From assembly GCF_008973825.1 (NCBI RefSeq), contig NZ_WCHR01000020.1:62001-126000 (forward strand): a DNA stretch of 64,000 nt, read 5' to 3'. Of this stretch, positions 23,801 to 41,626 are shown in pieces. The translations under genes and the position numbers were made by a program. The stretch's first letter is position 1. Every line of letters starts with the position of its first letter. Source of the DNA: Gemmobacter serpentinus. Lineage in GTDB: Bacteria > Pseudomonadota > Alphaproteobacteria > Rhodobacterales > Rhodobacteraceae. Below the pieces are notes generated by a model. It was not told the origin of the DNA. It worked only from the letters and a program-made list of their open reading frames with translations, and did no database searches.

Positions 23801-25816
23801 ATGACCGATCAGCTTTCGGGATTTCATACCCGGACCGGCATGTTTGATGACTGGCTTGACCAGCGCGCCACCATGCGCGCCTGGGAAGATTTCCTGACCT
23901 ATCGCAATATGGAGCAAAGCCGCACTGCCGGGGTGCGCCGCGAAATTCTCGAATCCTGGACGCGCAGCCTGGCCTCCGGCATTGATGCCACGGCCGAGCT
24001 TGCGCCCCTGGACGAGACCGAAGAGATGCTGGAGGCAGCGCAGCAAAAGAACGCAGATCTGCGCGCCGCCGCCGAACGCCCCTTTGAGAAGATGGGGCCG
24101 CTCTTGTCAGAGGCCAACGCGCTGCTGATCCTGACCGATGCCGAGGGGCTGGTGCTGGAACAGATTGGCGATCTGCGCACCCATTACGCCGCGCGCAGCA
24201 TCCATCTGATCCGGGGCGGCAAATGGGACGAGGCGGCGATCGGCACCAACGGTATCGGCACGGCGATCCGGTCGGGGCGGCCCACATTGGTTCATGCCTC
24301 GGAACATTTCTGTCAGGGCATCAAGGCCTGGACCTGCGCCGCGGCCCCGATCCGCGATCCGGTGGATCAACGCATCATCGGCGCGGTGGATCTGTCCGGC
24401 CCGCCCGCGATCTTTCGTCCGCATAATGTGGCGATGATCGCCTCGGTCGCGCGCGAGATCGAGGCCGCATTGGCGGAACGCGAGGAGATGCGCCGCACCC
24501 GGCTGCTGGAGGCATTTTGGGACAATGGCCCGGCGCGCAGCAGCCGCGACGCGGTGCTGATCCTGGATCGCATCGGCCGGGTGATGTATCATCGCATCCC
24601 CTCGGACGCGCCGCGTGACCAGATGGTTCCGAAGCTGTCGCTGGGGCAGAAGTTCATTCCGCTTTCCGTAACGATGAGCGATCAGGACATCGCCCGGGCC
24701 ATCCCGCCGGATCTGCGCCCCAGCGGCATTTCGCGGCTGTTCCTGGATGGCGAGTTCAGCGGGGCCGCGCTGGTGCTGCCGCCGCGCATCCGGGCTGTGT
24801 CGACCCCACCGGCGGAGCCCTTCCGCATTCCACCGCGCGCGGGGGCCGAGCATGACGAATTGCTGATGATCGGTCAGGCGCCGAAGTTCAGCACCGCAGT
24901 CGATCTGGCCCGCCGCGCAGCAAGCGCCGGATCTGCCGTGCTGATTCAGGGTGAGACCGGGGTCGGCAAGGAGCTGTTTGCGCGGCTGATCCACAGTGCG
25001 GCTGCGCATAAGGGGCGTGCCCCTTTCATCACGGTGAATTGCGGCGCAATCTCGGCCGAGCTGTTCGGCTCAGAACTGTTCGGCCATGCCCCGGGGGCCT
25101 TTACGGGCGCCACACGCGACGGCAAGCCCGGCAAGTTTGAACAGGCCGATGGCGGGGTGCTTTGCCTTGATGAGATCGGCGAGATGCCTTTGGAATTGCA
25201 GCCCTATCTGCTGCGGGTTCTGGAGCAAAGGGCCGTCTATCGCATCGGCTGTTCTCGCAGGCGCCAGGTGGATGTGCAACTGGTCGCAATGACCAACCGC
25301 GATCTGAGCCAGGAGGTCGAGGCCGGGCGCTTCCGCCGGGATCTGTATTACCGGCTCGGCGCGATCACCATCGAGGTGCCCCCGCTGCGGGAACGGCAAA
25401 GCGACATCCTCGCGCTGGCCGATCACTTCAATCGGGCGGTGGCGGTGCGGCTGAAACGCGAGCCGCTGCAATTGTCGGAGGAGGCCGCGCATCTGATGAC
25501 GGGCTATGCCTGGCCCGGCAATGTGCGCGAATTGCGCAACATGTTCGAGCGCCTGCATCTGATGCTGTCCGGCAGCGTGGTCACCGCCGAAGATCTGCCC
25601 AAGGCGATGCGCGAAGTCGTTGCCAGCACCGCACCCGCGGCCCCGATCGACGCTGCAACGCTGGTCAATCTGACCGATGTGGAGGAGCAGACGATCCGCC
25701 GCACGCTGATCGCCGAACAGGGCAATCTGACGCGCGTGGCCAATGCGCTCGGCATTTCGCGGCCGACGCTTTATCGCAAATTGAAGACTTACGGCATCCG
25801 CCGCACCTTTGGATAG
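23801..25816 (+). CDS. Sigma-54-dependent activator, GAF-AAA+-Fis (AcoR type)
   Basis: 671 residues from ATG 23801 (ribosome site GGGAGG). A GAF-like sensor region spans about 80-225 (A-A-I-G-T-N-G-I-G-T-A and the G-A-V-D-L-S-G-P pattern of AcoR-type activators). The AAA+ domain has Walker A G-E-T-G-V-G-K-E at 384-391, an intact GAFTGA at 432-437, Walker B V-L-C-L-D-E at 453-458 and the arginine-finger region R-R-D-L-Y-Y-R-L near 512. A Fis-type helix-turn-helix closes the protein at about 641-665. It can therefore open sigma-54 promoters. It converges on the groEL end of the mim operon and is the best candidate to act from the repeats at 34408-34620. Confidence 0.95.
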   Translation: MTDQLSGFHTRTGMFDDWLDQRATMRAWEDFLTYRNMEQSRTAGVRREILESWTRSLASGIDATAELAPLDETEEMLEAAQQKNADLRAAAERPFEKMGPLLSEANALLILTDAEGLVLEQIGDLRTHYAARSIHLIRGGKWDEAAIGTNGIGTAIRSGRPTLVHASEHFCQGIKAWTCAAAPIRDPVDQRIIGAVDLSGPPAIFRPHNVAMIASVAREIEAALAEREEMRRTRLLEAFWDNGPARSSRDAVLILDRIGRVMYHRIPSDAPRDQMVPKLSLGQKFIPLSVTMSDQDIARAIPPDLRPSGISRLFLDGEFSGAALVLPPRIRAVSTPPAEPFRIPPRAGAEHDELLMIGQAPKFSTAVDLARRAASAGSAVLIQGETGVGKELFARLIHSAAAHKGRAPFITVNCGAISAELFGSELFGHAPGAFTGATRDGKPGKFEQADGGVLCLDEIGEMPLELQPYLLRVLEQRAVYRIGCSRRRQVDVQLVAMTNRDLSQEVEAGRFRRDLYYRLGAITIEVPPLRERQSDILALADHFNRAVAVRLKREPLQLSEEAAHLMTGYAWPGNVRELRNMFERLHLMLSGSVVTAEDLPKAMREVVASTAPAAPIDAATLVNLTDVEEQTIRRTLIAEQGNLTRVANALGISRPTLYRKLKTYGIRRTFG

Positions 25817-25973: not shown

Positions 25974-27608
25974 TTACTGCCGCCCCAACCGCTCCGACCC
26001 GCCGCCAAGGGCCGGACCTGCGGTCGGATCAACGTATTCCTCCTGATGGCCGATCAGGGTCTCGGTGGTCAGGATCAGACAGGCGACCGAGGCCGCATTG
26101 GCCAGAGCCGAACAGGTGACGCGCACCGGATCGACGATGCCGGCCTCGATCATGTCCTGGAAACGGCCCTGTGACGCATCAAAGCCCATGCCATCGCCGG
26201 ATCGCACGACCTCAGCGATGACCGCATTGGGGTCGCATCCCGCATTCAGCGCGATCCGCGCCAGCGGCCGCGTGAGCACTGATCGCACCAGATCGACCCC
26301 CGCCGCCACATCACCCGAGGCCCCGGCCACCACATCGTCAAGCACCGGCGCGGCATGGGCCAGCGCCGAGCCGCCGCCCGGCACCACGCCCTCCTCCACC
26401 GCGGCGCGGATCGCATAAAGCGAATCCTCGATCAGCTGGATCTTGCGCTTTTGCTCCACCGGGGTCAGGCCACCGGCATGGATCACCGCCGTGCCGCCCG
26501 ACAGTTTGGCCAGCCGTTCGCGCAGCTTGTCCTGTTCGATATTGGGCGGGGCGATATCATATTGGCGCTGCACCTGCAGGCGGCGCGCCGTGATCGCACC
26601 CGCATCGCCCGCGCCACCGATCACCGTGGTCTGACTGGCCGAGGCCCGGACCTGCCGCGCTGCGCCCAATTGCTCACGCGTGACATTCTCGACCTTGCGG
26701 CCCAGATCGCGCGCCAGCACTTCGCCCCCGGTCAAGATTGCCAGATCATCCATCAATGCCTTGCGCCAATGGCCATATTCCGGCGGATGCACGATCAGAT
26801 ATTTGCCCGGAGGCGCGGCCTCCAGCAAGGTCACAACCACTTCGGGCGCGATCTCTTCGGCCACGATCAGCAACGACCGCCCTTCAGCATCGGCAATGGC
26901 GCGCGCGCCATCCAGCGCGGACGGCGAGAGGATCTTCTGATCCGTCAGCAGGATCAGCGGCTTGTCCAGCACCGCCTCCATCTCGTCCTGATCGGTGACC
27001 ATGTGATGCGAGATATAGCCGCGTTCAAAGGACATGCCCTCGATCACTTCCAGCGTGGTCTCCACCGTGACCGAGAAATCGGCGGTGATGATGCCATCCT
27101 CGCCCACGCGGGAATGCGCTTCGGCCACGATCGCGCCCAGACGGGGATCGGTCGCCGCAATATTGGCGACGGCAGCCAGCAGACGCGGATTGTCTTTTAC
27201 CGGCACGGACTGGGCGTGCAGCGTCTCCACCACCTTGGCCACCGCCAGCTCGATCCCGCGGCACAGATCCACGGTCCGGGCACCGCGCTCAGCCTGGGTC
27301 ACGCCCTGCTGGATCATCGCATTGGCCAGCACGATGGCGGTGGTGGTGCCGTCGCCCGCGACCTCATTGGTCTGCATCGAAACCTCGCGCACCACCTGCG
27401 CGCCCATGTTCTCGAAACGGTCGGGCAGTTCGATTTCGGTGGCGATCGACACCCCGTCACGGGTCACCAGCGGTGTGCCCACGGGGCGATCGATCATCGC
27501 GTTCAGCCCCTTGGGGCCCAGCGTCGGCTCAACCGCGGCGGCAAGGCGCGCAACCCCGCGCGCCAGCGCCCGGCGGGCCTCGATCGAGTGCAGCAGAAAA
27601 TTCGGCAT
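25974..27608 (-). CDS. mimG: Divergent GroEL-like chaperonin (MimG type)
   Basis: 544 residues from ATG 27608 (GGGAGG upstream). The GroEL ATPase motif is conserved as D-G-T-T-T-A-I-V-L-A (85-94) and T-L-G-P-K-G-L-N replaces the usual G-P-K-G-R-N. The protein diverges from housekeeping GroEL and ends without the Gly-Gly-Met tail (...A-L-G-G-G-S-E-R-L-G-R-Q). No groES is adjacent. Mycobacterial binuclear-iron monooxygenases of the Mim type need a dedicated GroEL-like protein to fold the large hydroxylase subunit, and this gene is last in the mim operon, so the same role is expected. Confidence 0.9.
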   Translation of the reverse strand: MPNFLLHSIEARRALARGVARLAAAVEPTLGPKGLNAMIDRPVGTPLVTRDGVSIATEIELPDRFENMGAQVVREVSMQTNEVAGDGTTTAIVLANAMIQQGVTQAERGARTVDLCRGIELAVAKVVETLHAQSVPVKDNPRLLAAVANIAATDPRLGAIVAEAHSRVGEDGIITADFSVTVETTLEVIEGMSFERGYISHHMVTDQDEMEAVLDKPLILLTDQKILSPSALDGARAIADAEGRSLLIVAEEIAPEVVVTLLEAAPPGKYLIVHPPEYGHWRKALMDDLAILTGGEVLARDLGRKVENVTREQLGAARQVRASASQTTVIGGAGDAGAITARRLQVQRQYDIAPPNIEQDKLRERLAKLSGGTAVIHAGGLTPVEQKRKIQLIEDSLYAIRAAVEEGVVPGGGSALAHAAPVLDDVVAGASGDVAAGVDLVRSVLTRPLARIALNAGCDPNAVIAEVVRSGDGMGFDASQGRFQDMIEAGIVDPVRVTCSALANAASVACLILTTETLIGHQEEYVDPTAGPALGGGSERLGRQ

Positions 27609-27682
27609 CGGGTAATCCTCCCTTGTGACCGGACGCGCAGGGTCGCGCCGGTTTCCCTTCATGGTGGTTGGGTTGGCGTGGC

Positions 27683-28519
27683 TCAGCCCCGGTGGCCCGG
27701 ACTGTCCGGGCTGGCCCCATAGGTGCTGGCTGGCTGCTCCCGGGGCGGCACCCGCCCCAGAATGAAATCGATCAGCTCCGGCTCCTCTCCGGAACGGTCG
27801 ACCTCTTTGTAGCGCGCGGCGGCAAGGCCCCGGCACATGGCGCCGTTGAACTCCATATTGATGCGCAGCGCGCGCAGCCGCATGAGATGATCGCCCAACT
27901 CTTCGGACGGCAGCGGATCACCCCGCCAGGTCACGAAAGCCGGATCATCGGGCAGCAGCGCCAGACCGTCCGCAACAAGGATCTCGCGGTAACGCGGCTT
28001 TTGCATCGCGGCCTCGGGCTGGTTGCTCAGGTTCAGCGCATCAAACCCGGCAAGTGACAGGCCGGTGATCTGCGCATGGGTCCAGCCCATCGCGATCAAG
28101 CCGCGGATCACCGCCTCTTGCCGGCGCAGAAAGGCCTTCTCGCGGAAGGTCTCGCGCAGTTCGGACAGATCCGCCCCGTCGCTCATCTCTGCGAAGACTG
28201 CATCAAACGACTGGTCGCCATTGACGGCGGCATTCACCCGCTCGGCATAGCAATGGTCCAGCAGGACAACCCGCGCGGCACAGGCCCAGGACGGGGCAAG
28301 TGCCGCCCGGCGAATGCCATCGGCCATCAGAAAGGCGAAGTTCGGCGAACACCAATAGGTCGGCAGGCGAAAGGCGATCTCGACCTCGCCGCGCCGCACC
28401 TCCAGCCGTTCGACAAAGCCCATATCGGTGATCGGCTCATCCAGCTCGGGGTCGGTGACGGCGCCAAGACGCCGCCACACTTCCCTTGCCTGCGCACCTT
28501 TGATCTGCGGCAGGCCCAT
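27683..28519 (-). CDS. MIP18/DUF59-type metal-sulfur assembly protein
   Basis: 278 residues. The N-terminal 90 residues match the DUF59/MIP18 family: V-T-D-P-E-L-D-E-P-I-T-D-M-G-F-V, then W-C-S-P-N-F-A with a conserved Cys. The C-terminal 170 residues form an additional mostly helical domain not recognised elsewhere. Homologous genes accompany propane/ketone-type di-iron monooxygenase operons. DUF59 proteins act in iron-sulfur or metal-centre assembly, so insertion of iron into the hydroxylase or reductase is plausible. It starts 3 bp after the amidohydrolase stop. Confidence 0.82.
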   Translation of the reverse strand: MGLPQIKGAQAREVWRRLGAVTDPELDEPITDMGFVERLEVRRGEVEIAFRLPTYWCSPNFAFLMADGIRRAALAPSWACAARVVLLDHCYAERVNAAVNGDQSFDAVFAEMSDGADLSELRETFREKAFLRRQEAVIRGLIAMGWTHAQITGLSLAGFDALNLSNQPEAAMQKPRYREILVADGLALLPDDPAFVTWRGDPLPSEELGDHLMRLRALRINMEFNGAMCRGLAAARYKEVDRSGEEPELIDFILGRVPPREQPASTYGASPDSPGHRG

Positions 28520-28522
28520 GGC

Positions 28523-29545
28523 TCATTCCGCCGCGATACGGATGGGCGCTTGCGCCAGTTCGGCGCGCTTGGCCGCCACGTCGATATCGTAAAGCCGCGC
28601 CGCATTGAGGCCGAGGATCTTCTCCTTGATCTCGTCGGTCAGCTGCACGCCGCGTTCCTGTGCGATATCCTCGGGGATCTGGAAATCCCAGAACTTTTCC
28701 ACCAGCCATTGCGGCGTCCAGATCGCGTAATCCGACCCGAACAGGATCTTCTCCGGCCCGATCCAGAACAGAAGTTCGGAAATAATCTCGGCAAAGTAGC
28801 GCGGGCGCGAATGGATGAAGGGAAGCGCCACGGCGAGGCCGCCATAGACGTTCGACTCCTGGGTCGCGATCCAGCAGAAATCGTCCAGACGCGGCAGGCC
28901 GCAATGTTCGATGATCCAGTTCAGGCCGAGGAAATCGGTCGCCGCATCATCCACATCGCCCACCGCAAAGGCATCTTTCGACAGCGGCCGGATGGTCGGG
29001 CCTTTATGGACATGGATGTTCTTGATCCCGAGCTTCTCGCAAAGCTCGAAGCACTTATAGGCCGAGGGATCGGTCAGCTTCCAGCCTTTGGAATCCCCGT
29101 TCCATTCGGCAGTATACATCTTGACCCCTTTGATATCGAAGGTCTCTTTCATGTAATGGATGTATTCCAGCGCCTTTTCGCCATCGCGTGGATCGAAGGA
29201 CCCGTTCACGATGAAACGACCGGGGTTAACCTCTGCCAGCTGGGTCGACCGCTCGATGGAGCTGAACCCTTCCTTGTAGAAATCCTTCAGGTAGGTGGAC
29301 TGGATGATTGCCATGTCATCGGGCCCGTCGATGAACAGATCGCGGTAAACCTGTTCAACCGTCTGCTTCTCGAACTTCTCCTTTTCCCAGAGCTGTTCCT
29401 TCGGGCTCAGCCCTGTGTGATAGGCGTAGAAGCAATCGATGAACTGCTTGCCATGCACATTGCGCTGGTTCTCGGGGCTGCCGTTCCAGAAATGGGTGTG
29501 GCAGTCCAGCACGAAGATCTCTTTGCCGTCGGGTGTCTTGAACAT
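28523..29545 (-). CDS. Amidohydrolase-family protein of the mim operon
   Basis: 340 residues from ATG 29545 (GGGAGG upstream). An amidohydrolase-2 TIM-barrel protein: the metal-binding D-C-H-T-H-F-W lies at residues 14-20, a second histidine in N-I-H-V-H-K-G, another in I-I-E-H-C-G-L-P, and an aspartate in L-F-G-S-D-Y-A-I-W. The same gene follows mimD/prmD in actinobacterial propane monooxygenase operons, where it is needed for or linked to activity, but its reaction is not established. Tight spacing to the MIP18 gene indicates cotranscription. Confidence 0.88.
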   Translation of the reverse strand: MFKTPDGKEIFVLDCHTHFWNGSPENQRNVHGKQFIDCFYAYHTGLSPKEQLWEKEKFEKQTVEQVYRDLFIDGPDDMAIIQSTYLKDFYKEGFSSIERSTQLAEVNPGRFIVNGSFDPRDGEKALEYIHYMKETFDIKGVKMYTAEWNGDSKGWKLTDPSAYKCFELCEKLGIKNIHVHKGPTIRPLSKDAFAVGDVDDAATDFLGLNWIIEHCGLPRLDDFCWIATQESNVYGGLAVALPFIHSRPRYFAEIISELLFWIGPEKILFGSDYAIWTPQWLVEKFWDFQIPEDIAQERGVQLTDEIKEKILGLNAARLYDIDVAAKRAELAQAPIRIAAE

Positions 29546-29662
29546 AAGGGTCCTCCCTGGATTTTGTCTTGGTAAGGGCTGTCGGATGCTGGCCGCGCGT
29601 CTGCCTTGCGGGTGCTGCCGCGCGGTGGCAACGGGGTGCCCGAAGGCACCCCGCACGGGCGG

Positions 29663-30034
29663 TCAGATATAGGCGAAGACCTCGTCCATATCGCCGAACA
29701 GGATCACCGTGTTGTCATCGATCCGCACCATGCGCCCGTAATGGGTCGAGGTGTTGACCTCGAAAATCTCGGCCGTCATCTCGCGGCCCAGATATTCGCT
29801 GATGTCATCCATCTTGAAGATCAGCTTGCCCTCGCCGTCGATGCGGATGGTGGCCGGGTTATAGGTCACCGTCACCTTCGGGTCCTGATCCATGTATTCG
29901 GCGATGGCGCGGGCCTCGACCGAGTCATTCATGGTGACGCCGCATTCATGCGAGATTTCGCGGCTGCTGAGGTCGATGTCCTTCATGGACTTGAAGATAT
30001 TGCTCTTCGTGCTGTCGCGTGCTGTGCTGGACAT
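29663..30034 (-). CDS. mimD: Monooxygenase coupling (effector) protein MimD
   Basis: 123 residues of the MmoB/DmpM family of small cofactor-less regulatory proteins (A-I-A-E-Y-M, V-T-Y-N-P-A-T-I-R-I-D-G-E-G-K-L). It binds the hydroxylase and gates electron transfer and substrate access. It starts 12 bp after the mimC stop. Confidence 0.92.
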   Translation of the reverse strand: MSSTARDSTKSNIFKSMKDIDLSSREISHECGVTMNDSVEARAIAEYMDQDPKVTVTYNPATIRIDGEGKLIFKMDDISEYLGREMTAEIFEVNTSTHYGRMVRIDDNTVILFGDMDEVFAYI

Positions 30035-30046
30035 GGGTCTCTCCTC

Positions 30047-31105
30047 TCAGCGGCTCAGGCCGATTTCGCCCAGGATCTGCGCCAGCCGCTCATGCGAGGC
30101 GGCCTGTGCATCGGCGAAGGACACGGGTTTGGAATGGGGCTGCGACCAGACAGGTTGCAGCGCGGTCGCGGCGCGGTCGGCCAGATCGCCGTGCTTCTTG
30201 ACCCAGGACTGGAACAGCGCGCGGTTATGGGCCCCGTGCTTTTCGTCGTGAACCAGCAGGTAGATCAGGTCGATCGTATTGGCGAGATTGCGCTCGTAAT
30301 CGGCTTCGGCCGCCGAGATCACCGGGGGCGTGATAAAGTCATTATTCGCCGCCGCCGCCTGCATCAAAAAGCCCGAGCGGAACAATTCGCCCACCAGCGG
30401 CTCGAAGATCAGGTTGATGGCGAAATACTGCTCCAGATAGTCTTCGGACCCCATGATCGACTCGATCGCCAGGCGGCAGGGCTGCCAGGCCGGATCCTCC
30501 AGCCAGGCCTTCTTGCCCAGCTCGTCATCCCAGCCTTCGATATCCATGCCGATCTCGGCCAGATAGAGCGTGATGTCCTGCGCCAGCCGCATCTTGTAGG
30601 ACGAATTGGTCAGCGTGGCATTGTTGATCATCTGGGTATAGCCATAGCGCTGCGCCTGCATCAGCGAAGTGCCAAGGCCAAACTCGGCATGTTTCCACGC
30701 GCCCAGATGCGTCTGCAGAACCTTTTGCCAGACCCTGTCGAACACCAGATGCGCGCCGGCCTTGCGGGCATTGCCGATGACGGCCTGCACCATGGTCTCG
30801 ATCTTCGACTGGCGCTGATAATGGGTGCGTTCCCATTCCTGATCCGGCGCGCGGAAGGCGTGCCAGTTCGAGGACAGCGCCCTGGTATTGTCCTTGGTAT
30901 AGGCACCCTTGCCATTGCCGAAGCTGATGATCCAGTCCTGGATCAGATAGCGTTCGGGATCGGGCTGCACGTCAACCGTGACATCCTCGTAATGGGTGGC
31001 CCGCTTGCCGCGCGGTTCGAAGTAATTGTATTTGCGGCTGGTCGATCCCGCGAAGATCGCAGAGCCGGCGGCCCCTGATCCGGTAGCGGTGGCTGTTGCT
31101 GCCAT
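30047..31105 (-). CDS. mimC: Monooxygenase hydroxylase small (beta) subunit MimC
   Basis: 352 residues, all-helical, ferritin-like beta subunit of soluble di-iron monooxygenases (R-K-Y-N-Y-F-E-P-R-G-K-R-A-T-H-Y-E-D-V-T, typical N-terminal segment). It lacks the di-iron ligand motifs, as expected for the non-catalytic subunit. The order large subunit-reductase-small subunit-coupling protein is that of group 5/6 propane and ketone-type enzymes. Confidence 0.93.
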   Translation of the reverse strand: MAATATATGSGAAGSAIFAGSTSRKYNYFEPRGKRATHYEDVTVDVQPDPERYLIQDWIISFGNGKGAYTKDNTRALSSNWHAFRAPDQEWERTHYQRQSKIETMVQAVIGNARKAGAHLVFDRVWQKVLQTHLGAWKHAEFGLGTSLMQAQRYGYTQMINNATLTNSSYKMRLAQDITLYLAEIGMDIEGWDDELGKKAWLEDPAWQPCRLAIESIMGSEDYLEQYFAINLIFEPLVGELFRSGFLMQAAAANNDFITPPVISAAEADYERNLANTIDLIYLLVHDEKHGAHNRALFQSWVKKHGDLADRAATALQPVWSQPHSKPVSFADAQAASHERLAQILGEIGLSR

Positions 31106-31157: not shown

Positions 31158-32216
31158 CTAGTGACCCGACGAACCGGACGTCGTGGTGAACTTGTCGTAG
31201 AAAATCCGCTCGCTTTCGAAATCGAGCATGAAGAGCGTCGGCGTCAGCGCGTCGATCATCGGCGGCGGACCGCAGGCATAGACATCGCCCTGCCCTTCCA
31301 GACCCAGCTCGCGCAGTTTGCGGTCGACCGCCTCATGAACAAAGCCGGTCTCGCCGTTCCAGCCGCTGCCCTCGGGGGCGTGTGACAGGACCGGAATGAA
31401 TTCGACCGAAGGGTTGGTCGCGGTGATTGCGGCCAGCCGCTCCAGATGGAACAGGTCGTCCTCGGTGCGCGCGCCATAAAAGAAATAGACCGGCCGGTCC
31501 TCGCCGCTTTCGATATGGTCATGCAGGATCGACCAGACCGGCGACATGCCCGACCCCGCGCCCACCAGCACCACCGGACCCTCGCGACCCTCGCGGCGGA
31601 AACACATGCCATAGGGGCCGGTCACCGTCACTTTTGCTCCGGCCCGGATTCCTCCGCTGTCGAGCTGGTTGGAGAATTTTCCTTCCGGGTATTTCTTGAT
31701 GATGAAGGAGAGTTTTTGGGTTTCGCTCGGCGGATTTGCCATGGAGAACGAACGCGTGATCGTCTCCCCTTCTTCGGTGGTGACCGTGATGTCGACATAC
31801 TGACCCGCCCAGAACTTGAGCGGCGCGTTCAGCTCAATCTCGACGCCGCGAATGTCATGCGTGAGTTTCTGGAAATCCGTGATCTGTCCGTCGAACTGTT
31901 TGACGGGGATGGATTTCGACAGCACCTCCTCATCGTAGTTCAGAAGGTCGATCGTCAGGTTGTCGAAAGCCTTTGCGCGGCACATCAGGATCTGGCCGGA
32001 ATCCCGGTCGCCATCATTCAGCGCGAAGGTGGAATATTTCAGCATCTCGACTTCACCGTCGAGCAGCACGCATTTGCAGGCGGAACATTGCCCCTCCTTG
32101 CATCCGTGGGGCAGCGCGATCCCCTGGCGGAATGCGGCATCAAGGACGGTTTCGTCTTCCTCGACCTCGAATTCCACGCCCACGGGTTCAAGCCTTACGG
32201 TGTAAACCTCTCCCAT
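31158..32216 (-). CDS. mimB: Monooxygenase reductase MimB (2Fe-2S, FAD, NADH)
   Basis: 352 residues. A plant-type ferredoxin domain supplies Cys39, Cys44, Cys47 and Cys79; the FAD motif R-S-F-S lies at 155-158 and the nucleotide-binding G-A-G-S-G-M-S-P at 219-226. It passes electrons from NADH to the hydroxylase. It is separated from mimA by 100 bp containing a stable hairpin. Confidence 0.95.
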   Translation of the reverse strand: MGEVYTVRLEPVGVEFEVEEDETVLDAAFRQGIALPHGCKEGQCSACKCVLLDGEVEMLKYSTFALNDGDRDSGQILMCRAKAFDNLTIDLLNYDEEVLSKSIPVKQFDGQITDFQKLTHDIRGVEIELNAPLKFWAGQYVDITVTTEEGETITRSFSMANPPSETQKLSFIIKKYPEGKFSNQLDSGGIRAGAKVTVTGPYGMCFRREGREGPVVLVGAGSGMSPVWSILHDHIESGEDRPVYFFYGARTEDDLFHLERLAAITATNPSVEFIPVLSHAPEGSGWNGETGFVHEAVDRKLRELGLEGQGDVYACGPPPMIDALTPTLFMLDFESERIFYDKFTTTSGSSGH

Positions 32217-32316: not shown

Positions 32317-33984
32317 TCAGTTGCAGGGATTGATGGTGAAGCCCGCCTGATATTCGGCGATATGCTTGGCCCGCGCCTCGGGGGTCATTTCGCGCAGCAG
32401 GGTCAGCGGCGACAGCAGGGTATGGCCGCGCACATCGTCCAGCGTCCACATATCCTTGTTGTCAAAGCGCAAATGCGGCTGCGGCACCAGGGTTTTGCCA
32501 TCGTCACGGACGAAGTTCAGATCCTTGATGGCATCGGCCAGATCCCAACCATGATAGACGGTTTCCCATTCGCGCTTGCCCGAGAACTTGCCCATCGCCG
32601 GCGTCGGACGACCCTGATACTCGTTCGAGAAGGCCTCGACGGCGGTCCAGCGGTCCAGCTCATGCGCAAAGGTGTGCAGTTGGCCGTCGATCTCGTCCAC
32701 CACCATATCCTCGCGGATGAGGCAGGGCACCAGGCAGGACCAGCAGCGATGCGGATAGACGTAGCCGGTTTCCTCGTTGAAGGTGATGACCTTCTGGCCC
32801 GGCTTCGACAGTTTGGCATACCATTTCCAGAAGTCGCCGAATTCGGCATACCAGCCCGGATACTTGTGCTCGAACCATTCGAAGTCCTTGTCGGTCTGGG
32901 CTTCAATCCGCCAGAAGTTCACCGGCCAGCCGACCGCGAAGAACTGCGCGACCTTGTGCACATAATTCTTCTTGGTGATCCGGTTCCAGGCTTCCTGGAC
33001 GTCATCGTGATGCACCTTGATGCCGTATTTCTCGAGCGGCAGCATATAGGTGCGGTAGTAGTCTTCGAAGATCCAGCGGTGCCACATCTCCGCGTAGGAT
33101 TCCTTCTCCTTGTCGCGGTTGGTGGTGCCGTATTCGATCAGCGTGCCAATGGCGGCATCGACGATGGCGTGGTTCTGCCAGAATGCATAGCGCAGGTCGC
33201 GTTCCAGCAGCAGGTGGTTCTCCGGCTCTTTCAGCGCGGCCATCAGCAGCGAGTGGCCATTGCCGATATGGCGGCTTTCATCGGATTGCACCGACAGGAA
33301 CACGGTGGGCAGCGCGTAGTCGCCATTGCGGGCGGCCTCCGACGGCATGGCCACGAAAAGCGTGTTGGTGAAGGCAGTTTCGGCGACCACAGTCAGATAC
33401 ATGCAGGCCGAGGTCATCACGTCGCCGGTGATGAACCCCTCGCCGAACTGGCGACCGATGGTGGTGGCATAGCACTTGCCAAAGGCCTCTTCGGTAATGT
33501 CGAAGCCCGCCGGATCGATATAATTCTCCATATACCACTTCTTCAGGTTCATCTGAATGGTGGAATGGCGGAACTCGTCGACCATCTGCATGGTAAAGCC
33601 GGTGCGCAGATCCTCACCCGGTGCGATGCGCGCGACCATTGCCATGGAGCGCGCCGCCGAGATTTCCGGGAAGGGGATGATCGCCAAGAACAGCTTCATC
33701 CATTCCACCCAACGGGGCTGGACGTTGCGGAACATGTCGCCGCGCAGCGCCGCATCCAGCGCGCCATAGACACGGTTGTCCTTTTCTTCCTGCATCGGGA
33801 AGTAGGAGCGCAGCACCTGCTTCATCGGGTCGCGCGGGGCCTTGGCGATCTTGTAATCGGTCGGGAAGGTCGCGGCTTCCTGAACATAGCTGGGGTTCCA
33901 GCCAAGGTCCGAGATCTTCTTCGTGGCTTCGCCGACCGAGATCCCGCGCTGCGCGGTGATCTTGTTGAGCGTAAGTTGCGTCAT
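32317..33984 (-). CDS. mimA: Monooxygenase hydroxylase large (alpha) subunit MimA
   Basis: 555 residues. The di-iron carboxylate site is visible: Glu107 in F-P-E-I-S-A, Glu137/His140 in D-E-F-R-H, Glu202 in V-A-E-T-A-F and Glu236/His239 in S-D-E-S-R-H. Length and motif context match the MimA/PrmA group of soluble di-iron monooxygenases, which hydroxylate propane at C2, acetone and phenols. First gene of a seven-gene operon. Substrate cannot be fixed from sequence: propane, 2-propanol/acetone or a phenol are the leading options, and the two alcohol dehydrogenases nearby favour an alkane. Confidence 0.95.
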   Translation of the reverse strand: MTQLTLNKITAQRGISVGEATKKISDLGWNPSYVQEAATFPTDYKIAKAPRDPMKQVLRSYFPMQEEKDNRVYGALDAALRGDMFRNVQPRWVEWMKLFLAIIPFPEISAARSMAMVARIAPGEDLRTGFTMQMVDEFRHSTIQMNLKKWYMENYIDPAGFDITEEAFGKCYATTIGRQFGEGFITGDVMTSACMYLTVVAETAFTNTLFVAMPSEAARNGDYALPTVFLSVQSDESRHIGNGHSLLMAALKEPENHLLLERDLRYAFWQNHAIVDAAIGTLIEYGTTNRDKEKESYAEMWHRWIFEDYYRTYMLPLEKYGIKVHHDDVQEAWNRITKKNYVHKVAQFFAVGWPVNFWRIEAQTDKDFEWFEHKYPGWYAEFGDFWKWYAKLSKPGQKVITFNEETGYVYPHRCWSCLVPCLIREDMVVDEIDGQLHTFAHELDRWTAVEAFSNEYQGRPTPAMGKFSGKREWETVYHGWDLADAIKDLNFVRDDGKTLVPQPHLRFDNKDMWTLDDVRGHTLLSPLTLLREMTPEARAKHIAEYQAGFTINPCN

Positions 33985-34248: not shown

Positions 34249-34264
34249 TGCAGAACCCGTGCCA
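34249..34264 (-). promoter_or_regulatory. Sigma-54 promoter of the mim operon
   Basis: On the minus strand the 16-mer TGGCACGGGTTCTGCA matches the -24/-12 consensus TGGCACG-N4-TTGCA with one mismatch and exactly ten bases between the invariant GG and GC. Transcription would start near 34238, giving a leader of about 250 nt before mimA. Confidence 0.85.
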
Positions 34265-34407: not shown

Positions 34408-34620
34408 CGTTACAGCTGTCACGACCGGGCCGAACAGTGTTGCGCAAAACTGTAACGAACGGGCCGTTACACAGGGCCAGCCCCGCTCCGCGCCACGATT
34501 CGGTGCCGGAATGGCCCGCGGCAGGTGCGGTAAACCCATGCGGCATTGCAGCATGTAACGCGCATCAGCAACTGTAACGGGCCGCCGGAACGGACCGTTA
34601 CAAACGTAACAAAAGTTAAC
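34408..34620. promoter_or_regulatory. Repeated TGTAACG/CGTTACA enhancer sites
   Basis: Sites: imperfect palindrome 34408-34423; TGTAACG 34451-34457 with CGTTACA 34465-34471 (7-nt gap); half site 34554-34560; TGTAACGG 34573-34580 with CCGTTACA 34595-34602 (14-nt gap); partial sites at 34605-34610 and 34615-34620. They lie about 140-370 bp upstream of the sigma-54 promoter, as activator enhancers do. The remaining sequence between 34265 and 34740 has no gene. Confidence 0.75.
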
Positions 34621-34740: not shown

Positions 34741-35190
34741 ATGTCGGATCCGATGAATCCCGATCAGACACCTTCCCGCAGCACGGCGGCAGCCATGCTT
34801 GCCCGCGCGCCGCAGGATCTGGTCTTCACCATGCGCTTCCTTGGCCAAAGCCAGGAAATTCTGCACAGCCATTTCCGCCGCTTTCTGGAAGATCGGCTGG
34901 CCGAAGCCGGGGTCACGGTGGACAGCCATCCCTTGCTGCCCTTCTTTATCGACAGTCACGCGGTAGAGTTGCGCGAATTTGTCGTGACCGGCGTTTCGCT
35001 GGCCCGCAGCTTTCGTCTGGGCGAGATCGAGATCCTGACCGGCGATGTCGAAACCCTGATGCGCGTCGATATCTGGGATGCCATCGCCTGCCATATCGAC
35101 ATGGCTGAAACCCGCTTTACCGCTGGTATCCAGCGCGTCGTGGACCGGCTGGAGGCCGATGAGGCCGCCCTGCGCAGAACACCATCATGA
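34741..35190 (+). CDS. Uncharacterised 149-residue protein, divergent from mimA
   Basis: ATG 34741 follows AAGGG. Mainly helical: D-L-V-F-T-M-R-F-L-G-Q-S-Q-E-I-L-H-S-H-F-R-R-F-L near the N-terminus, and a central V-D-S-H-P-L-L-P-F-F-I-D-S-H-A-V-E segment with His, Asp and Glu. No signal peptide or membrane segment, and no family recognised. It shares the enhancer region with mimA, so it may be coregulated, although no matching sigma-54 site was found on the plus strand. Confidence 0.7.
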   Translation: MSDPMNPDQTPSRSTAAAMLARAPQDLVFTMRFLGQSQEILHSHFRRFLEDRLAEAGVTVDSHPLLPFFIDSHAVELREFVVTGVSLARSFRLGEIEILTGDVETLMRVDIWDAIACHIDMAETRFTAGIQRVVDRLEADEAALRRTPS

Positions 35191-35810: not shown

Positions 35811-36956
35811 ATGAGCGAAACCGCCACCCGTAAGGCCGCGCCGGATGCGCCCGCCGCATCGCCACAATCCCCCCTGTTCGATCTGTTGGCGCGCAGCTGG
35901 CGGCTTGATGTGCCGGTTGCCGAAATCGCCTTTGATGCGGCTGGCAAGGCCGCGGGCTTTGCGATGGAGGATGGCCGGATCGCATTGATGCCGCTCGAGG
36001 ATGCGGAGTCGCCCCTGCACCGGATGCGGGTCGAGGCCGATAGTGGGCGCAGCACCATCCGCCCGCGCGAAAAGCCCGTGGCGGCACCGATCCTCACGCC
36101 GGAACTGGCGCAAGGGTCCGCAATGCTCGCGGTCTCGGGCAGTATCGGGCTTGTGGCCGCGGGGCAGGATGGCCGCATTCATCGTGTGACGCCGAGGGGG
36201 CAAGTCATCCCGATGACCGGCAAGCCCAGCCCGATCTTCGCATTGGCCTCGGACGGTCTGGGACGGCTGGCCATCGCCCGCGACGGGTGGGTCGACCTGC
36301 ATGATGAAGAAGGCATGGCCCGGCAAAGCGGGCTCTTGACGCCGGGCCCCGCCTCCGCCCTCGCCTTCGCACCGGGCGATGGCACGCTGGCGGTGCTATT
36401 GCCCGATGAACTGTTTCTTGGGCCGCCGCGACAGGGCTATGACAGTCTGCCGCTGGGTGGCCATGGGCCGCTGGCCTTTTCCACCGATGGCGCATGGCTG
36501 GCCGGATCGAACGGCAAGGATGGGTTCTGGCTGTTGCGGCGGGCCGACCGCGCCGTCGCCCGGATCGGCAATTTTCGCGCGCCGCCCGCGGCACTGGCCT
36601 TCAACCGCGCTGCGGGGGCGGTGTTCGCCGCGGGGGCATTCCGTGCCGCAGGTTGGGCGCTGGATACGCCGCCGATCGGGAATGAGACCACTGGTGCCCT
36701 GAAAACCGGCCAATCCGGTCTGGTGCTGATCGAACGGATCGCAGCCCATCCCACGCGCGACCTGATCGCGCTTGGCACGGCGGATGGCGCGGTCTCCATT
36801 GCGCGGGTCGGGCATGGTGCCGAAATGGCGCTGCGACAGGCCGATGGCCATGCGGTGACCGCGCTGCACTGGTCATCGGACGGGCTGCACCTCGCGCTCG
36901 GCACGGCAGGCGGCGAGGCCGCGCTGGTCACGCTGCCGCCACAGATCTTCAAGTGA
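35811..36956 (+). CDS. Beta-propeller (WD40-like) protein
   Basis: 381 residues without signal peptide. Seven or eight degenerate blades of about 40 residues can be traced, for example L-A-F-S-T-D-G-A-W-L-A-G-S, L-A-F-N-R-A-A-G-A-V-F-A-A-G and L-H-W-S-S-D-G-L-H-L-A-L-G-T-A. Such propellers act as scaffolds rather than enzymes. Placed between a coiled-coil protein and a 62-residue protein, in a block between the monooxygenase promoter and the RpoN paralog; it might form a complex with these neighbours. Confidence 0.75.
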   Translation: MSETATRKAAPDAPAASPQSPLFDLLARSWRLDVPVAEIAFDAAGKAAGFAMEDGRIALMPLEDAESPLHRMRVEADSGRSTIRPREKPVAAPILTPELAQGSAMLAVSGSIGLVAAGQDGRIHRVTPRGQVIPMTGKPSPIFALASDGLGRLAIARDGWVDLHDEEGMARQSGLLTPGPASALAFAPGDGTLAVLLPDELFLGPPRQGYDSLPLGGHGPLAFSTDGAWLAGSNGKDGFWLLRRADRAVARIGNFRAPPAALAFNRAAGAVFAAGAFRAAGWALDTPPIGNETTGALKTGQSGLVLIERIAAHPTRDLIALGTADGAVSIARVGHGAEMALRQADGHAVTALHWSSDGLHLALGTAGGEAALVTLPPQIFK

Positions 36957-37189: not shown

Positions 37190-38146
37190 TCAACCCGGCA
37201 GCGCGCTGGCAGGCCCGGTATCGGTTTCGGACGCGCGGCTCACCAGCGCGCAACGCATCTGATCGAAGATGATATCCCGCGCCGCTGCGGCATAGGCCAG
37301 CAGCGGTGCTTCCTCGGCTCCGGCGAGGGCAATTTGCGCCAGATCCTCGGCCAGACCGATGTCGATCAGATGCGCCCAGGCACACAACTCGTGCAGGCGA
37401 TGCGTCACGAAATCCAGCGCGTCGCGCGCTACCGGATCGTCAGGCCAAAGCGGCGCGGCGGTCTGCCGCCCCCGCCCGAGAGGAGAGCTATGCACCGCAG
37501 AGCCCAGCAGGGTCAGCACCGCGCGCCGCCAATGGCCATATTCGCTTTGATCCGAGTGATCGAGGCCGATGCTATACAGCTTTTCCGCCACCAGCCGGAA
37601 GGCGCGCCCGCCCGCAATATGGCGACGCCAGAAATCATGTGCCTCATCGGCGCTGCGACAGGTGACAAAGGCCTGCGCCAATTTGCGGCGCAGCAGCAGC
37701 GCCAGCACCATATCAACATCCTCCGAGACCGAACGCGCCAGTTGCAGTGCCGGCACCGCAAGACCCGACAGCACCAGCTGGCGCAGGCCGGCCACGGTCT
37801 CGATCATGCGCCCGGTCAACAAATGCAGCGCGCAAAGCTGGTCATGGCTGAGCCGCAACCCATCCACCTGCCGCCCCACCCCGGCGGCACGATGCAGGCC
37901 GGTAAGCCAGATCAGCGCCTGATCGAACAGGCACAGCCCATCATGGGCGCGGCTGTCTGCGGCGGGCCGATCCGGTGCCTGCAGCGGGCGAAAGCCCGGC
38001 AAGGTGCGAATGGTCTGCCCCCAGATCCGGTCAAGATCATGGCCTTGCATCGCCCAGATCTGCCGGATCCGCGCCGCAAGCTGCGGCGACATTTCGCGGT
38101 AGAACGCCTCCGGTCCCAACATTGGATCTGCGCGATCAAACCTCAC
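37190..38146 (-). CDS. Uncharacterised helical protein divergent from RpoN paralog
   Basis: 318 residues from GTG 38146, six bases after AAGGA; ATG 38122 is the alternative. Nearly all helical, with a central L-A-R-S-V-S-E-D-V-D-M-V-L-A-L-L-L-R-R-K-L segment and R-A-F-R-L-V-A-E-K-L. A loose resemblance to DUF5677-like helical proteins is possible but not convincing. Only 29 bp separate its start from that of the RpoN-like gene, so the two promoters overlap or one is read from within the other gene. Confidence 0.65.
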   Translation of the reverse strand: MRFDRADPMLGPEAFYREMSPQLAARIRQIWAMQGHDLDRIWGQTIRTLPGFRPLQAPDRPAADSRAHDGLCLFDQALIWLTGLHRAAGVGRQVDGLRLSHDQLCALHLLTGRMIETVAGLRQLVLSGLAVPALQLARSVSEDVDMVLALLLRRKLAQAFVTCRSADEAHDFWRRHIAGGRAFRLVAEKLYSIGLDHSDQSEYGHWRRAVLTLLGSAVHSSPLGRGRQTAAPLWPDDPVARDALDFVTHRLHELCAWAHLIDIGLAEDLAQIALAGAEEAPLLAYAAAARDIIFDQMRCALVSRASETDTGPASALPG

Positions 38147-38175
38147 CTTGGATCCTTTTGCAAAGGGGCTATGCC

Positions 38176-39396
38176 ATGCCGATGACCGCACGGCTTGCAC
38201 AGGGTCAGCGCCAGTCGCTGGGCTTTCGCCAGATCCAGGCCATGGGCCTGTTGCGGCTGACCAATGAGGGGCTGGCCGCCGATCTCGCGCGGCGCGCAGC
38301 CGGCAACCCCTTCCTGCGCCTGCGACTTCCAGCCGGGGCGGCCTTTGCCGAATCCGATCTGGCGGCTGAGGATACCGGCGGGCTCTATGCCCATCTGACC
38401 GGCCAGTTGCGGCTGATCGCTGCGGCGCGCGCCGATCCGCATCTGACCCATGCGCTTCTGGAGGCGCTGGATCAGAACGGCTGGCTTGACCGCCCGCTGG
38501 CCACGATTGCCGCGTCCGTCCAACGTCCCCTTGCCGATGCCGAGGCCTTGCTGGCTGCGCTGCAACAAGGGGTGGAGCCGGTCGGGCTTTTCGCCCGCGA
38601 TCTGGCCGATTGCCTGCGCCTGCAAGCGGCAGATCGTGACCAGCTGACGCCGGTCATGGCGGCGGTGCTGCGGCATCTGGATCTGCTGACCAATGGCGGC
38701 ATGGCTACGCTGATCGCAGCCACCGGCGCCACGGCAGAGGAGGTCTCGCTGTGCCTTGCCCGCATCCGCCGGATGGATCCGCGGCCCGGGCTGGCCTTCG
38801 GCGGCGCCCCCGCACCGCTGCGGGCACCCGATGTCATCGTGTCGCGCGGCGCGGACGGCTGGCAGATCGGGTTGAATCGCAGCACCTTGCCTGTGCTTGA
38901 TCTTGCGCCCAAGGGGCCGATCGATGCGGGCCTGCGTGCCCTGCGATCCGAGGCAGAATGGTTGGCCAGCATCGTGGAGCGGCGCAATCGCACCGTGCTG
39001 GCGGTCGCCCGCGCCGTGCTGGATCGCCAGCGCGGCTTTCTGGACCATGGGCCGGGGGCGCTGCTGGCGCTCAGCCGCACGCAGATCGCGGCGGGGCTCG
39101 GCCTGCATGACAGCACCGTGGGCCGGGTCGCGCGCGACCTGCTGATCGAGACGCCGCAGGGCCTGCGCAGTCTGTGCAGCCTCTTCGGTGGCGGCCCAAC
39201 CGGGGCCGAGGCGGCAGGGGCTGCCATCCGGCATCGACTGGGCCAGTTGGTGGCGGCTGAACCCCCACAGGCACCGCTGGATGACGCGGCCCTTGCCGCC
39301 CGCCTGACCGCCGAGGGCAAGCCGTTGTCGCGCCGCACCGTCGCCAAATACCGCGCCATGCTGGGCATTGCACCTCAGGGCCAGCGACGGCGCTGA
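38176..39396 (+). CDS. Divergent, shortened RpoN (sigma-54) paralog
   Basis: 406 residues, against about 480 for usual RpoN. Region I is short but present (Q-G-Q-R-Q-S-L-G-F-R-Q-I-Q-A-M-G-L-L-R-L and N-P-F-L); the usual acidic region II is nearly absent. The core domain contains M-D-P-R-P-G, the helix-turn-helix H-D-S-T-V-G-R-V-A-R-D-L at about 311-322 and the RpoN box S-R-R-T-V-A-K-Y-R at 385-393 that reads the -24 element. Key DNA-contact motifs are intact, so it can probably recognise sigma-54 promoters. Its place beside the mim operon suggests a dedicated sigma factor; a housekeeping RpoN would be elsewhere. Confidence 0.88.
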   Translation: MPMTARLAQGQRQSLGFRQIQAMGLLRLTNEGLAADLARRAAGNPFLRLRLPAGAAFAESDLAAEDTGGLYAHLTGQLRLIAAARADPHLTHALLEALDQNGWLDRPLATIAASVQRPLADAEALLAALQQGVEPVGLFARDLADCLRLQAADRDQLTPVMAAVLRHLDLLTNGGMATLIAATGATAEEVSLCLARIRRMDPRPGLAFGGAPAPLRAPDVIVSRGADGWQIGLNRSTLPVLDLAPKGPIDAGLRALRSEAEWLASIVERRNRTVLAVARAVLDRQRGFLDHGPGALLALSRTQIAAGLGLHDSTVGRVARDLLIETPQGLRSLCSLFGGGPTGAEAAGAAIRHRLGQLVAAEPPQAPLDDAALAARLTAEGKPLSRRTVAKYRAMLGIAPQGQRRR

Positions 39397-39406
39397 TCGC
39401 GTCGCC

Positions 39407-41242
39407 TCAGTCACCGAGATGCTTGTAGATCGTGGTCCGCGACATGCCCAGGGCGCGCGCCGCCAGCGTAATATTGCCATCATGGTGTTGAACGCTGGCC
39501 CGGATGGTCTGGCACTGGCTTTCCTTCCAGGGGATGCCCGCGCATTGCCGGCAACAGGGCGCAGGCACGGGCTGCACCTGCACAGGCAAGAGCCCGTTCA
39601 GATCATGCGGCTCCAACAGGCCATCGGCGCAGGTCAGCACCGCCTGGGTTACACTCGCGCGCAGTTCATGCAGGTTGCCGGGCCAGTCATGCGCGCCCAG
39701 CCGGGCCATTGCCGCATCCGATATCCGCGCGCCCGGCCGCACCGCACGGGCAAAGCGCAGCGCCAGCGCCGCCAGATCGCCGCGCTGCCTGAGCGGCGGC
39801 AGGTCCAACCGGAAACCTTCCAGCCGGTAACGCAGCGCGGGCAATAACCCCGCCAAGCCATCAGGGTCACTGGTCACGCTGATGACCCGCACATCACAGC
39901 AGACCAAGGCACCGCTTTGCGGCTGACGGTATTCGCCCGCATCCAGCACCCCGGCCAGGGCAGCCTGTGCCGAATGGGGCAACGCCGTCACCTCATCCAG
40001 CACCAAGGTGCCGCCATGGGCCTGCTGCAACAGGCCCGGCCGCTGGCCATCACCCAGAAGTTGCACCAGATCCGCCTCCGCCAGAAGCCGCCCATCCAGC
40101 GTGACCATCGGGCCGGACCGGCCCGATGCACCATGTGCCAGCCGCGCGATCAGCGCCTTGCCCGTGCCGGTCTCGCCACTGATGGCGATTGCCGCGCCCC
40201 GCCGTGCCGCATCCGGCAGCGCCTGCAATTGTTGCCAAAGTGCCGGATCCTCGACCACCACGTCGCGAAACAGATTGCGCGCAGGGGCAGCCGGCTCCGC
40301 CAATGTCGGCTTCAAGCGCCGCGCCAGCGCGAAACTGGCGCGGTTCGCCACGCAGCGCAGCGACACCGCCGATCCGATCCGGTCGCGAATGCGCAGCGTC
40401 TCGCCCTCGGCCAGACGGCGCTGGATGGCGGAAAAGGGTTGTTCAAAGATCCGGTCGAAGTTTTCGCCCAGCAACCGCGGAAAGCCGGTCAGGAACATCT
40501 CGCCCTTGCGGTTCACCGCCGTCAGCGTCAGATCCTCGGCCAGAACCAGCATCCCCATCGACAAGGTGCCGAGATATTCGGGGCGCGGATGGAATTGCAG
40601 CACGATGCTGCGGTCATGGCGGGCGCGGATCAGGCTGTTCTCGATGCTGGAGGCCGACATCTGCACCAATGCCGCCGTATGCTGCTGCCGCACCGCCGAC
40701 ATGGAGGATGCATCCAGCACCCCGGCCAGCCGCCCTGCTCCATCAAAGATCGGGGCCGAGATGCAGGAGACATCCCCATGCGCCCGCAGGAAATGTTCGC
40801 CGCCATAGACCTGCGCCGGGCGTCCGGTTGCGATGCAGACCCCCATCGCATTGGTGCCGCGCAGATCCTCGCTCCAGACCGAGCCGGGCACGACTTGCGC
40901 CCCGGCATCGGTCTCGGCGAATTGCGCATCCTGCAGCGTGTCGAGCACCACCCCTTCGGGCGAGCCGAGCGCGATCATGAAGTTGGATCCGGCGATCTGG
41001 TCGAACAGCAATTCCAGCTCGGGCCGGGCAAAGCGGATCAGATCGGCGTGCAACTGGCGAGAGACGGTAAACTCGTTTTCCGACAGGATCATTCTGCGCG
41101 CACGATCCAGCGGATCCAGCCCATGCGACAGGCTGCGCAGCCAGCTTTCGGTGATATCGCCCGGCAAGGCCCCACCCGGAAACCTGCCTTGCGATTCAAG
41201 CTGATGGCGGGCGCGTGTCAGCGCCGAAGTCTGCATCTCCAT
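39407..41242 (-). CDS. AcoR/NtrC-type regulator lacking GAFTGA
   Basis: 611 residues from ATG 41242; an ATG at 41272 is less likely. A GAF-type sensor region (about 60-230) and a PAS-like segment precede an AAA+ domain with Walker A G-E-T-G-T-G-K at 356-362, Walker B T-L-V-L-D-E at 412-417 and R-Y-R-L near 471-474. Where GAFTGA should be (about 397-405) there is only a short G-D-G-Q-R-P-G-L. A Fis-type helix-turn-helix lies at 590-608. Without the GAFTGA loop it should not remodel sigma-54 holoenzyme in the normal way. MimR of mycobacteria, which have no sigma-54, is a related case. It converges on the RpoN paralog, 10 bp apart. Confidence 0.9.
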   Translation of the reverse strand: MEMQTSALTRARHQLESQGRFPGGALPGDITESWLRSLSHGLDPLDRARRMILSENEFTVSRQLHADLIRFARPELELLFDQIAGSNFMIALGSPEGVVLDTLQDAQFAETDAGAQVVPGSVWSEDLRGTNAMGVCIATGRPAQVYGGEHFLRAHGDVSCISAPIFDGAGRLAGVLDASSMSAVRQQHTAALVQMSASSIENSLIRARHDRSIVLQFHPRPEYLGTLSMGMLVLAEDLTLTAVNRKGEMFLTGFPRLLGENFDRIFEQPFSAIQRRLAEGETLRIRDRIGSAVSLRCVANRASFALARRLKPTLAEPAAPARNLFRDVVVEDPALWQQLQALPDAARRGAAIAISGETGTGKALIARLAHGASGRSGPMVTLDGRLLAEADLVQLLGDGQRPGLLQQAHGGTLVLDEVTALPHSAQAALAGVLDAGEYRQPQSGALVCCDVRVISVTSDPDGLAGLLPALRYRLEGFRLDLPPLRQRGDLAALALRFARAVRPGARISDAAMARLGAHDWPGNLHELRASVTQAVLTCADGLLEPHDLNGLLPVQVQPVPAPCCRQCAGIPWKESQCQTIRASVQHHDGNITLAARALGMSRTTIYKHLGD

Positions 41243-41626
41243 GGGCTCGGCCCCTCCCCGGACCTTCTCCATTCCCGTGCCCGTTCGGAACCTGCGCCCG
41301 CTTACGCCGACGCGTAACACAAAGGCCCTTCCCGTGGCGGTCGCGCCCCCGAACCTGACAAAGCGTATCGGCTGGGCGCCCCCTGTCAATCGCCGCGCAT
41401 GATTCGCGGCGCGGGTGTTCAGGATCTGGACATCCGCGCCGATGAGATCACGCCGCGCAGCCGATCCGGCCGGAATGTCCAGCGCCTGAACGCCACGAAA
41501 CCGCACTTCGTCCAGATCGCGAACGGCTGCATCTGCGGCATGGGCTTTCGTTGCACCGGGCCGCACCTGAGCCGAAAACTGCCCCTCACCGCCGAGGAGA
41601 GCGGTATCCGAGGAGGTTAGCCAACC
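41243..41626. other. Divergent control region, regulator / alcohol dehydrogenase
   Basis: 384 bp between divergent genes. A 73-codon open frame (41399-41620) has no ribosome site or family resemblance. No convincing sigma-54 site: a TGGGCTTTCGTTGCA stretch at 41541-41555 has the GG-GC spacing one base short. A GAGGAGG ribosome site for the dehydrogenase lies at the right edge. Confidence 0.5.

Follow-up and report, generated by a model that had tools for sequence, protein, structure and literature searches.

Does an rpoN gene that adjoins a monooxygenase operon serve the whole cell or mainly that operon? The question is raised by a 64,000-nucleotide stretch of the Gemmobacter serpentinus genome (hereafter the window), in which a short rpoN lies 4.2 kb from mimA. 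The mimABCD-type soluble di-iron monooxygenase cluster is complete, with two hydroxylase subunits, a reductase, a coupling protein and a GroEL, and the features of the locus, in window coordinates and with the basis of each call in parentheses, are the following.

23768-25816, plus strand, at the far end of the mim operon: AcoR-type bEBP with GAF, AAA+ and Fis HTH domains and GAFTGA at residues 443-448 (domains, motif)
25974-27836, minus strand: operon-specific GroEL of the mimG type (domain match); as listed, this ORF runs into the preceding gene
27683-28519, minus strand: FeS-assembly (PaaD-like) domain protein (domain match)
28523-29656, minus strand: amidohydrolase family 2 protein (domain match)
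29663-30034, minus strand: mimD, MmoB/DmpM coupling protein (domain match)
30047-31105, minus strand: mimC, hydroxylase small subunit (Pfam)
31158-32216, minus strand: mimB, reductase (Pfam)
32317-33984, minus strand: mimA, di-iron hydroxylase large subunit (Pfam Phenol_Hydrox)
34249-34264, minus strand: TGGCACGGGTTCTGCA, candidate -24/-12 promoter of mimA, with C and not T at -15 (motif, position)
34409-34620, no strand: clustered TGTAAC/GTTACA half-sites, a possible enhancer at which the mim activator would bind (repeats)
34741-35190, plus strand: small hypothetical ORF, divergent from mimA (no family match)
35811-36956, plus strand: WD40 beta-propeller protein (Pfam)
37190-38200, minus strand, start uncertain: conserved protein between rpoN and the WD40 gene, predicted to be all-helical
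38176-39396, plus strand: mim-linked rpoN (sigma-54), 406 aa, the genome's sole rpoN (ORF and Pfam domains)
38194-38319, plus strand: region I (activator-interacting domain), residues 7-48 (Pfam Sigma54_AID, below the cut-off)
39106-39144, plus strand: HTH segment HDSTVGRVARDLL (RpoN alignment)
39331-39354, plus strand: conserved RpoN box RRTVAKYR (RpoN alignment)
39407-41350, minus strand, start approximate: another AcoR-type protein, lacking GAFTGA, whose gene converges with rpoN (homology)

Family searches (Pfam, NCBIfam) gave nothing for the ORF at 34741-35190. The protein at 37190-38200, whose ORF as listed overlaps rpoN by 25 bp, matched nothing in Pfam, in NCBIfam or in a fold search at E <= 0.001 (mean pLDDT of the model, 70.6); it is 58-72% identical to proteins at the same place in near relatives, and many of the family's mim clusters retain it between rpoN and the WD40 gene.

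The window RpoN matches the Pfam profiles Sigma54_CBD (123.7 bits, cut-off 22.9) and Sigma54_DBD (125.8 bits, cut-off 22.8), aligns with positions 4-45 of the 46 of Sigma54_AID at 20.8 bits against a cut-off of 23.8, and falls below the cut-off of the RpoN equivalog TIGR02395 of NCBIfam (233 vs 277.35 bits); these scores point to a diverged sigma-54 that stands outside the equivalog. As a preliminary description of the locus had stated, the protein is some 70 residues shorter than usual (71 aa below the 477-aa sigma-54 chains in the PDB), keeps both the helix-turn-helix (HDSTVGRV, where most canonical rows of the alignment have HESTVSRVTxNKY/F) and the RpoN box, and has almost no region II (18 aa). 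Region II has a median length of 19 aa in 21 mim-linked RpoN vs 98.5 in 30 canonical rows, but other RpoN of the family are short as well (medians of 35 in 14 rows and 22 in 7 rows), so we rejected a short region II as a hallmark of the mim-linked subtype. All 31 Foldseek matches of the AlphaFold model (mean pLDDT 82.7, pTM 0.51) at E <= 0.001 were sigma-54 chains; global TM-scores reach only 0.30-0.40 when normalised by query length, and for this reason we place no trust in how the model arranges the domains.

The same description had called the gene a paralog, a label that has to be dropped, as the window gene is the only rpoN of the genome (4.26 Mb, 63 contigs, 99.99% complete). Being the only copy is what one would expect of an ordinary general sigma-54 that lies near mim by chance and serves several activators, an explanation that we regard as unlikely. 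A sole copy had also been named as a finding that would refute specialisation; it was indeed found, yet it does not settle the matter, because rpoN is missing at the Pfam cut-off from 264 of 394 family genomes and because G006 of the same genus, with three rpoN, and Cereibacter sphaeroides, with four, again have one mim-linked copy. The DNA-binding domain was matched over the cut-off in the other 130 genomes and at E <= 0.001 in 141; weak matches of 20-23 bits in G147 and G397 were not taken as a second rpoN, and in another family genome (G041:C54:1297-1632) the rpoN match is broken by a TAG. Within the genus, rpoN is present in G000 (the window genome), G001, G003, G006 and G009, and no match was found in G002, G004, G005, G007, G008 or G010. 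The rpoN-less genomes G002, G005, G008 and G010 are 99-100% complete, which argues against a general role.

To follow the association of rpoN with mim, we called mimA at E <= 1e-100 in 12 of the 394 family genomes and added G001 and G006 from a PF02332 search of 147 relatives, which brought the mimA genomes to 14; G041 has PF02332 matches of 24% identity to mimA and was rejected as a carrier. All 14 have rpoN, and in 12 of them, from nine genera, a divergent rpoN lies 0.5-4.2 kb upstream of mimA. The co-occurrence that the preliminary description had suggested looking for is thus seen, and it supports the proposal of a sigma-54 specialised for mim, in the form of conserved linkage to the target operon across genera, as expected of an operon-specialised Rhodobacterales RpoN. 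Over the 394 genomes, rpoN passes the cut-off in 12/12 with mimA vs 118/382 without (Fisher p 1.2e-6, computed on related genomes that are not independent). Five loci (G000, G001, G003, G006, G061) have the two genes on opposite strands, 2.6-4.2 kb apart, and seven (G147, G149, G192, G306, G397, G412, G449) have them on the same strand at 0.52-0.66 kb; the block made of rpoN, the 37190-38200-type gene (where present) and the WD40 gene is inverted between the two arrangements and the linkage is kept. The linked copy is the only full-domain rpoN in eight of the 12 (G000, G001, G003, G147, G149, G397, G412, G449). G006, G061, G192 and G306 have additional rpoN, and this recurrence of the linkage beside other copies again speaks against a general sigma-54. 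The two remaining carriers, G150 and G197, have mimA without a linked rpoN, and their single rpoN groups with housekeeping copies.

Such linkage could also be passive, with rpoN inherited along with mim, no functional dependence between them, and sigma-70 or another sigma factor driving the operon. All mim-linked copies that we found lie in Rhodobacterales, and two well-supported groups contain 17 of the 20 mim-linked copies placed in a tree (see below), as passive inheritance would have it. It sits poorly with the retention of the block despite its inversion, with the lack of a linked rpoN in the two genomes that have a housekeeping-type rpoN (G150, G197), and with selection: for mim-linked rpoN, three pairs of close relatives gave dN/dS values of 0.19, 0.19 and 0.16, and for mimA two close pairs gave about 0.015, so the linked rpoN is under purifying selection, yet evolves far faster than mimA. 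We consider passive linkage improbable.

The clusters that lack rpoN bear on the same point. Outside the family we read five of the 18 mimA plasmid records that are not from Rhodobacterales (Aminobacter, Rhizobium sp. CB3060, Bradyrhizobium, Caballeronia, Azospirillum), and a class-wide search found mimA in G115 and G746 (3/385, counting the window's own). MimA is 75-94% identical in these seven clusters; the operon GroEL is present in 7/7, an activator of the same type in 6/7 (it was not found at the G115 cluster) and an adjoining WD40 gene, whose product perhaps acts in enzyme maturation, in 4/7, while no linked rpoN was found in any of the seven within the 28-34 kb examined for each. A housekeeping rpoN was found in G115, and the other six hosts presumably have one too. 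Most rpoN-less clusters also have a sigma-54 promoter and an AcoR-type activator, and their hosts should use the housekeeping sigma-54, which again argues against passive linkage.

Among plasmids, 21 records carry mimA, and the three from Rhodobacterales (Paracoccus aminophilus pAMI4, Gemmobacter fulvus and Ponticoccus alexandrii p-SCP4) all have the linked rpoN; pAMI4 was typed as mobilizable. On pAMI4 an IS5-family transposase lies between the reductase and small-subunit genes of mim (L252, 18934-19863). Viewed from the sigma factor, a scan with the alignment of 12 mim-linked RpoN, of which the best 80 of 519 relatives were used, placed mimA within the flank in nine: Paracoccus sp. IB05, Gemmobacter nectariphilus, G. 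caeni, Pseudogemmobacter bohemicus, G. aquatilis, Fuscibacter oryzae, UBA1943, HKST-UBA101 and Cereibacter johrii. Among these 80, mimA stood beside all 7 RpoN that share 55-69% identity with that of the window and beside 2 of the 73 that share 37-47%, with many flanks ending at contig ends. RpoN relatedness alone is therefore no predictor of mim, since 71 of the best 80 relatives had no mimA in the flank examined.

In a 67-row tree, 12 mim-linked RpoN formed one group (80/88). A 62-row tree, built without 15 canonical rows and without L175 (rpoN frame broken near the C-terminus), held 20 mim-linked RpoN and required two changes, with a single change in 42% of bootstrap trees; a Gemmobacter-Paracoccus group (9 rows) and a Ponticoccus-type group (8 rows) were each supported at 100/100. 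The window RpoN lies outside the housekeeping group in both trees, which speaks against a general sigma-54; a single mim-linked clade is not clear, given the 42%, and one or several captures of rpoN by mim are possible. The trees held other unusual copies. Two more divergent rpoN types, each kept between two genera, were seen in G006 (L058, L059) and G056 (L071, L072); all four have their own GAFTGA activator 1.4-6.3 kb away and, from this arrangement, are probably more private sigma-54 modules. Seven family rpoN (L061, L062, L064, L067-L070) form a well-supported, long-branched group with an unusual HTH.

The preliminary description had further placed a sigma-54 promoter about 4 kb from rpoN. 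The site stands, as TGGCACGGGTTCTGCA has one mismatch and lies 3.9 kb from rpoN (we assume the -24/-12 numbering), but a motif match by itself is what chance would give: the window holds 43 sites at up to two mismatches vs 37.7 expected, and we set this count aside as uninformative. The genome has 2645 consensus places at up to two mismatches, about twice the backwards control; so many consensus-like sites could suit a general sigma-54, although the excess is probably due to composition, because shuffles of the window show none; further targets of this sigma factor may nevertheless exist. The mimA site counts as evidence because its position is conserved. Of 28 loci, 27 have their best sigma-54-like site between 205 and 340 bp ahead of mimA, the exception being Caballeronia (L257, -81), and the score of the best site was reached by <= 4% of 100 mononucleotide shuffles in 26 of the 28 (9% for L110, 8% for L253); for L114 we used the site ranked second, at -257, which lines up with the sites of its relatives.

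The sequence of the site differs with the presence of a linked rpoN. Clusters without one have TGGCAC and TTGC in 6/6 (L257 left out). Departures at -15 (C or G) or -22 (A or T) occur in 19 of the 21 distinct mim-linked, private-copy loci (18 with the top-ranked L114 site) vs 0/6 of the others, Caballeronia, which departs at neither position, being outside this comparison. The T of the RpoN box is changed to V, A or M in eight loci, seven of which have A at -22 (TGGAAC or CGGAAC; six with the top-ranked L114 site); the other 13 loci keep the T, and A at -22 occurs in none of them; L112 is the exception to this correspondence between RpoN box and -24 element. These comparisons are Fisher-tested hand counts over few lineages and few evolutionary events, which are not independent, and in them the promoter and the DNA-binding residues of mim-linked RpoN appear to covary. 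Further upstream, six TGTAAC/GTTACA half-sites fall within the 800 bp preceding mimA in the window; the one spaced TGTAAC palindrome pattern tried gave zero matches.

Which activator would work with this sigma factor? Among the PF00158 matches in the window genome, the only canonical GAFTGA is that of the AcoR-type bEBP (23768-25816) at the mim operon, so that by sequence the genome has one cognate bEBP with GAFTGA/GSFTGA, the pairing itself being predicted; we propose this MimR-type protein as the cognate activator. A single canonical bEBP, at the mim operon, is hard to reconcile with a general sigma-54 serving several activators. The other PF00158 proteins of the genome have no GAFTGA, except for one GAFPGA variant (C58); these motif-less AAA+ regulators and the DctD-like GAFPGA bEBP, which could be active with sigma-54, are what a general sigma-54 has in its favor. 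DctD-like response regulators with GAFPGA (G000:C58:57895; G036:C22:19223 and C1:80239) may no longer depend on sigma-54. Beyond the end of the mim operon, 12 of the 14 family mimA genomes have an activator of the same type as the one proposed for the window, and none was found in the stretches examined at mim of G003 and G150; in G003, whose linked rpoN is its only rpoN, the genome has three GAFTGA DNA matches. In G149, G192, G397 and G412, the sole GAFTGA DNA match of the genome, with a pattern that did not include GSFTGA, lies ~12-15.5 kb downstream of mimA.

The convergent AcoR-type regulator noted in the preliminary description is a real ORF (start near 41350 by homology), but its part as a partner of RpoN could not be upheld. 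We rejected the protein (39407-41350) as a partner because GAFTGA is absent from it, and it is probably not RpoN's activator. The same observation bears on a sigma-54 shared, through this convergent protein, by mim and an adjoining alcohol dehydrogenase/ABC transporter unit: a regulator of the convergent type and a dehydrogenase adjoin in several relatives, whereas the window's regulator lacks the motif and none was found next to rpoN in G006 or C. sphaeroides, which leaves this arrangement very improbable.

Operon-specialised sigma-54 for nif and fla are already known in the family. The available text on C. sphaeroides pairs RpoN1 with NifA for nif, RpoN2 with FleQ for fla1 and RpoN3 with AprX for xrpA (PMC11999139), so that each studied copy serves one gene set with one bEBP, as proposed here for mim. 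G061 corresponds to C. sphaeroides 2.4.1, since 3 kb taken from its 105-kb contig match that strain's plasmids at 99.9% identity. It has four rpoN and, among the 10 of 15 PF00158 matches read, five GAFTGA/GSFTGA proteins; WS8N is likewise given five such bEBPs (PMC11999139, available text). From features and neighbours we took L270, 19 kb from rpoN L083, as NifA; L273 and L276 (no HTH), both near rpoN L084, were taken as FleQ and FleT, and rpoN2 is placed within the fla1 locus in the accessible part of PMC7277832. L279, a receiver-domain protein (domain judged by eye), was taken as AprX, and L282 is the AcoR-type bEBP at the mim operon, by elimination the likely counterpart of RSWS8N_04525. 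G036 and G087 each have a single rpoN, of the C5:702120 type, and the PF00158 matches that we read in them include no GAFTGA/GSFTGA bEBP other than AprX orthologs (67-74%); for this reason the C5:702120 type would be RpoN3 and the mim-linked copy RpoN4, an assignment of the 2.4.1 gene made by elimination and not by locus-tag matching. The available text of PMC11999139 assigns no role to RpoN4 or 04525, describes deletion alleles of both, and does not contain the word monooxygenase. Among the literature matches listed for rpoN with mim, propane or di-iron monooxygenase, or for RpoN4, there was no earlier report of an rpoN-mim linkage. Rhodobacter capsulatus, as far as the accessible part of PMC6925177 goes, has one rpoN, which is linked to nifU2 and whose production NifA controls; it resembles the window genome in its sole, operon-linked rpoN and differs in that its RpoN serves nitrogen fixation, not hydrocarbon or ketone oxidation.

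The binuclear iron monooxygenase mimABCD of Mycobacterium is likewise clustered with GroEL and an AcoR-type regulator, and the window cluster shares with it the enzyme family, gene order, GroEL and type of regulator. To our knowledge, Actinobacteria have no sigma-54; in the window, by contrast, sigma-54 belongs to the cluster.

Taken with the alternatives weighed above, we think it likely that the window gene encodes a sigma-54 private to the mim di-iron monooxygenase cluster, and that the sole sigma-54 of this genome probably exists mainly to switch on the adjoining hydrocarbon/ketone-oxidising operon. It would guide RNA polymerase to the -24/-12 promoter in front of mimA and drive little else. 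The promoter complex would be opened by the AcoR-type GAFTGA protein encoded at the operon's opposite end, bound at the candidate TGTAAC/GTTACA cluster, after this protein has sensed a substrate or product, the presumed inducer, through its GAF domain. We propose that the mim cluster brings its own sigma-54 because the family largely lacks a housekeeping one, and that sigma factor and promoter have drifted jointly away from the canonical code. An extension of this reading, which we put forward tentatively and hold at a little under even chances, is a portable, self-sufficient regulon: a plasmid-transferable catabolic cluster with its own sigma-54, bEBP and drifted promoter code that would work in sigma-54-less hosts and be insulated from resident paralogs.

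New with respect to the nif and fla cases are the catabolic target, a self-contained module that plasmids carry, the co-diverged promoter, the RpoN4 prediction, and the correlation of a linked rpoN with the lack of a housekeeping-type sigma-54. They offer a specific and cheap test for RpoN4 and the bEBP RSWS8N_04525 of C. sphaeroides, and sets of sigma factors and promoters that have co-diverged in nature, with which -12/-24 recognition can be studied. For the Rhodobacterales, they suggest that sigma-54 has turned into an operon-level accessory that can move with its target genes rather than a genome-wide factor.
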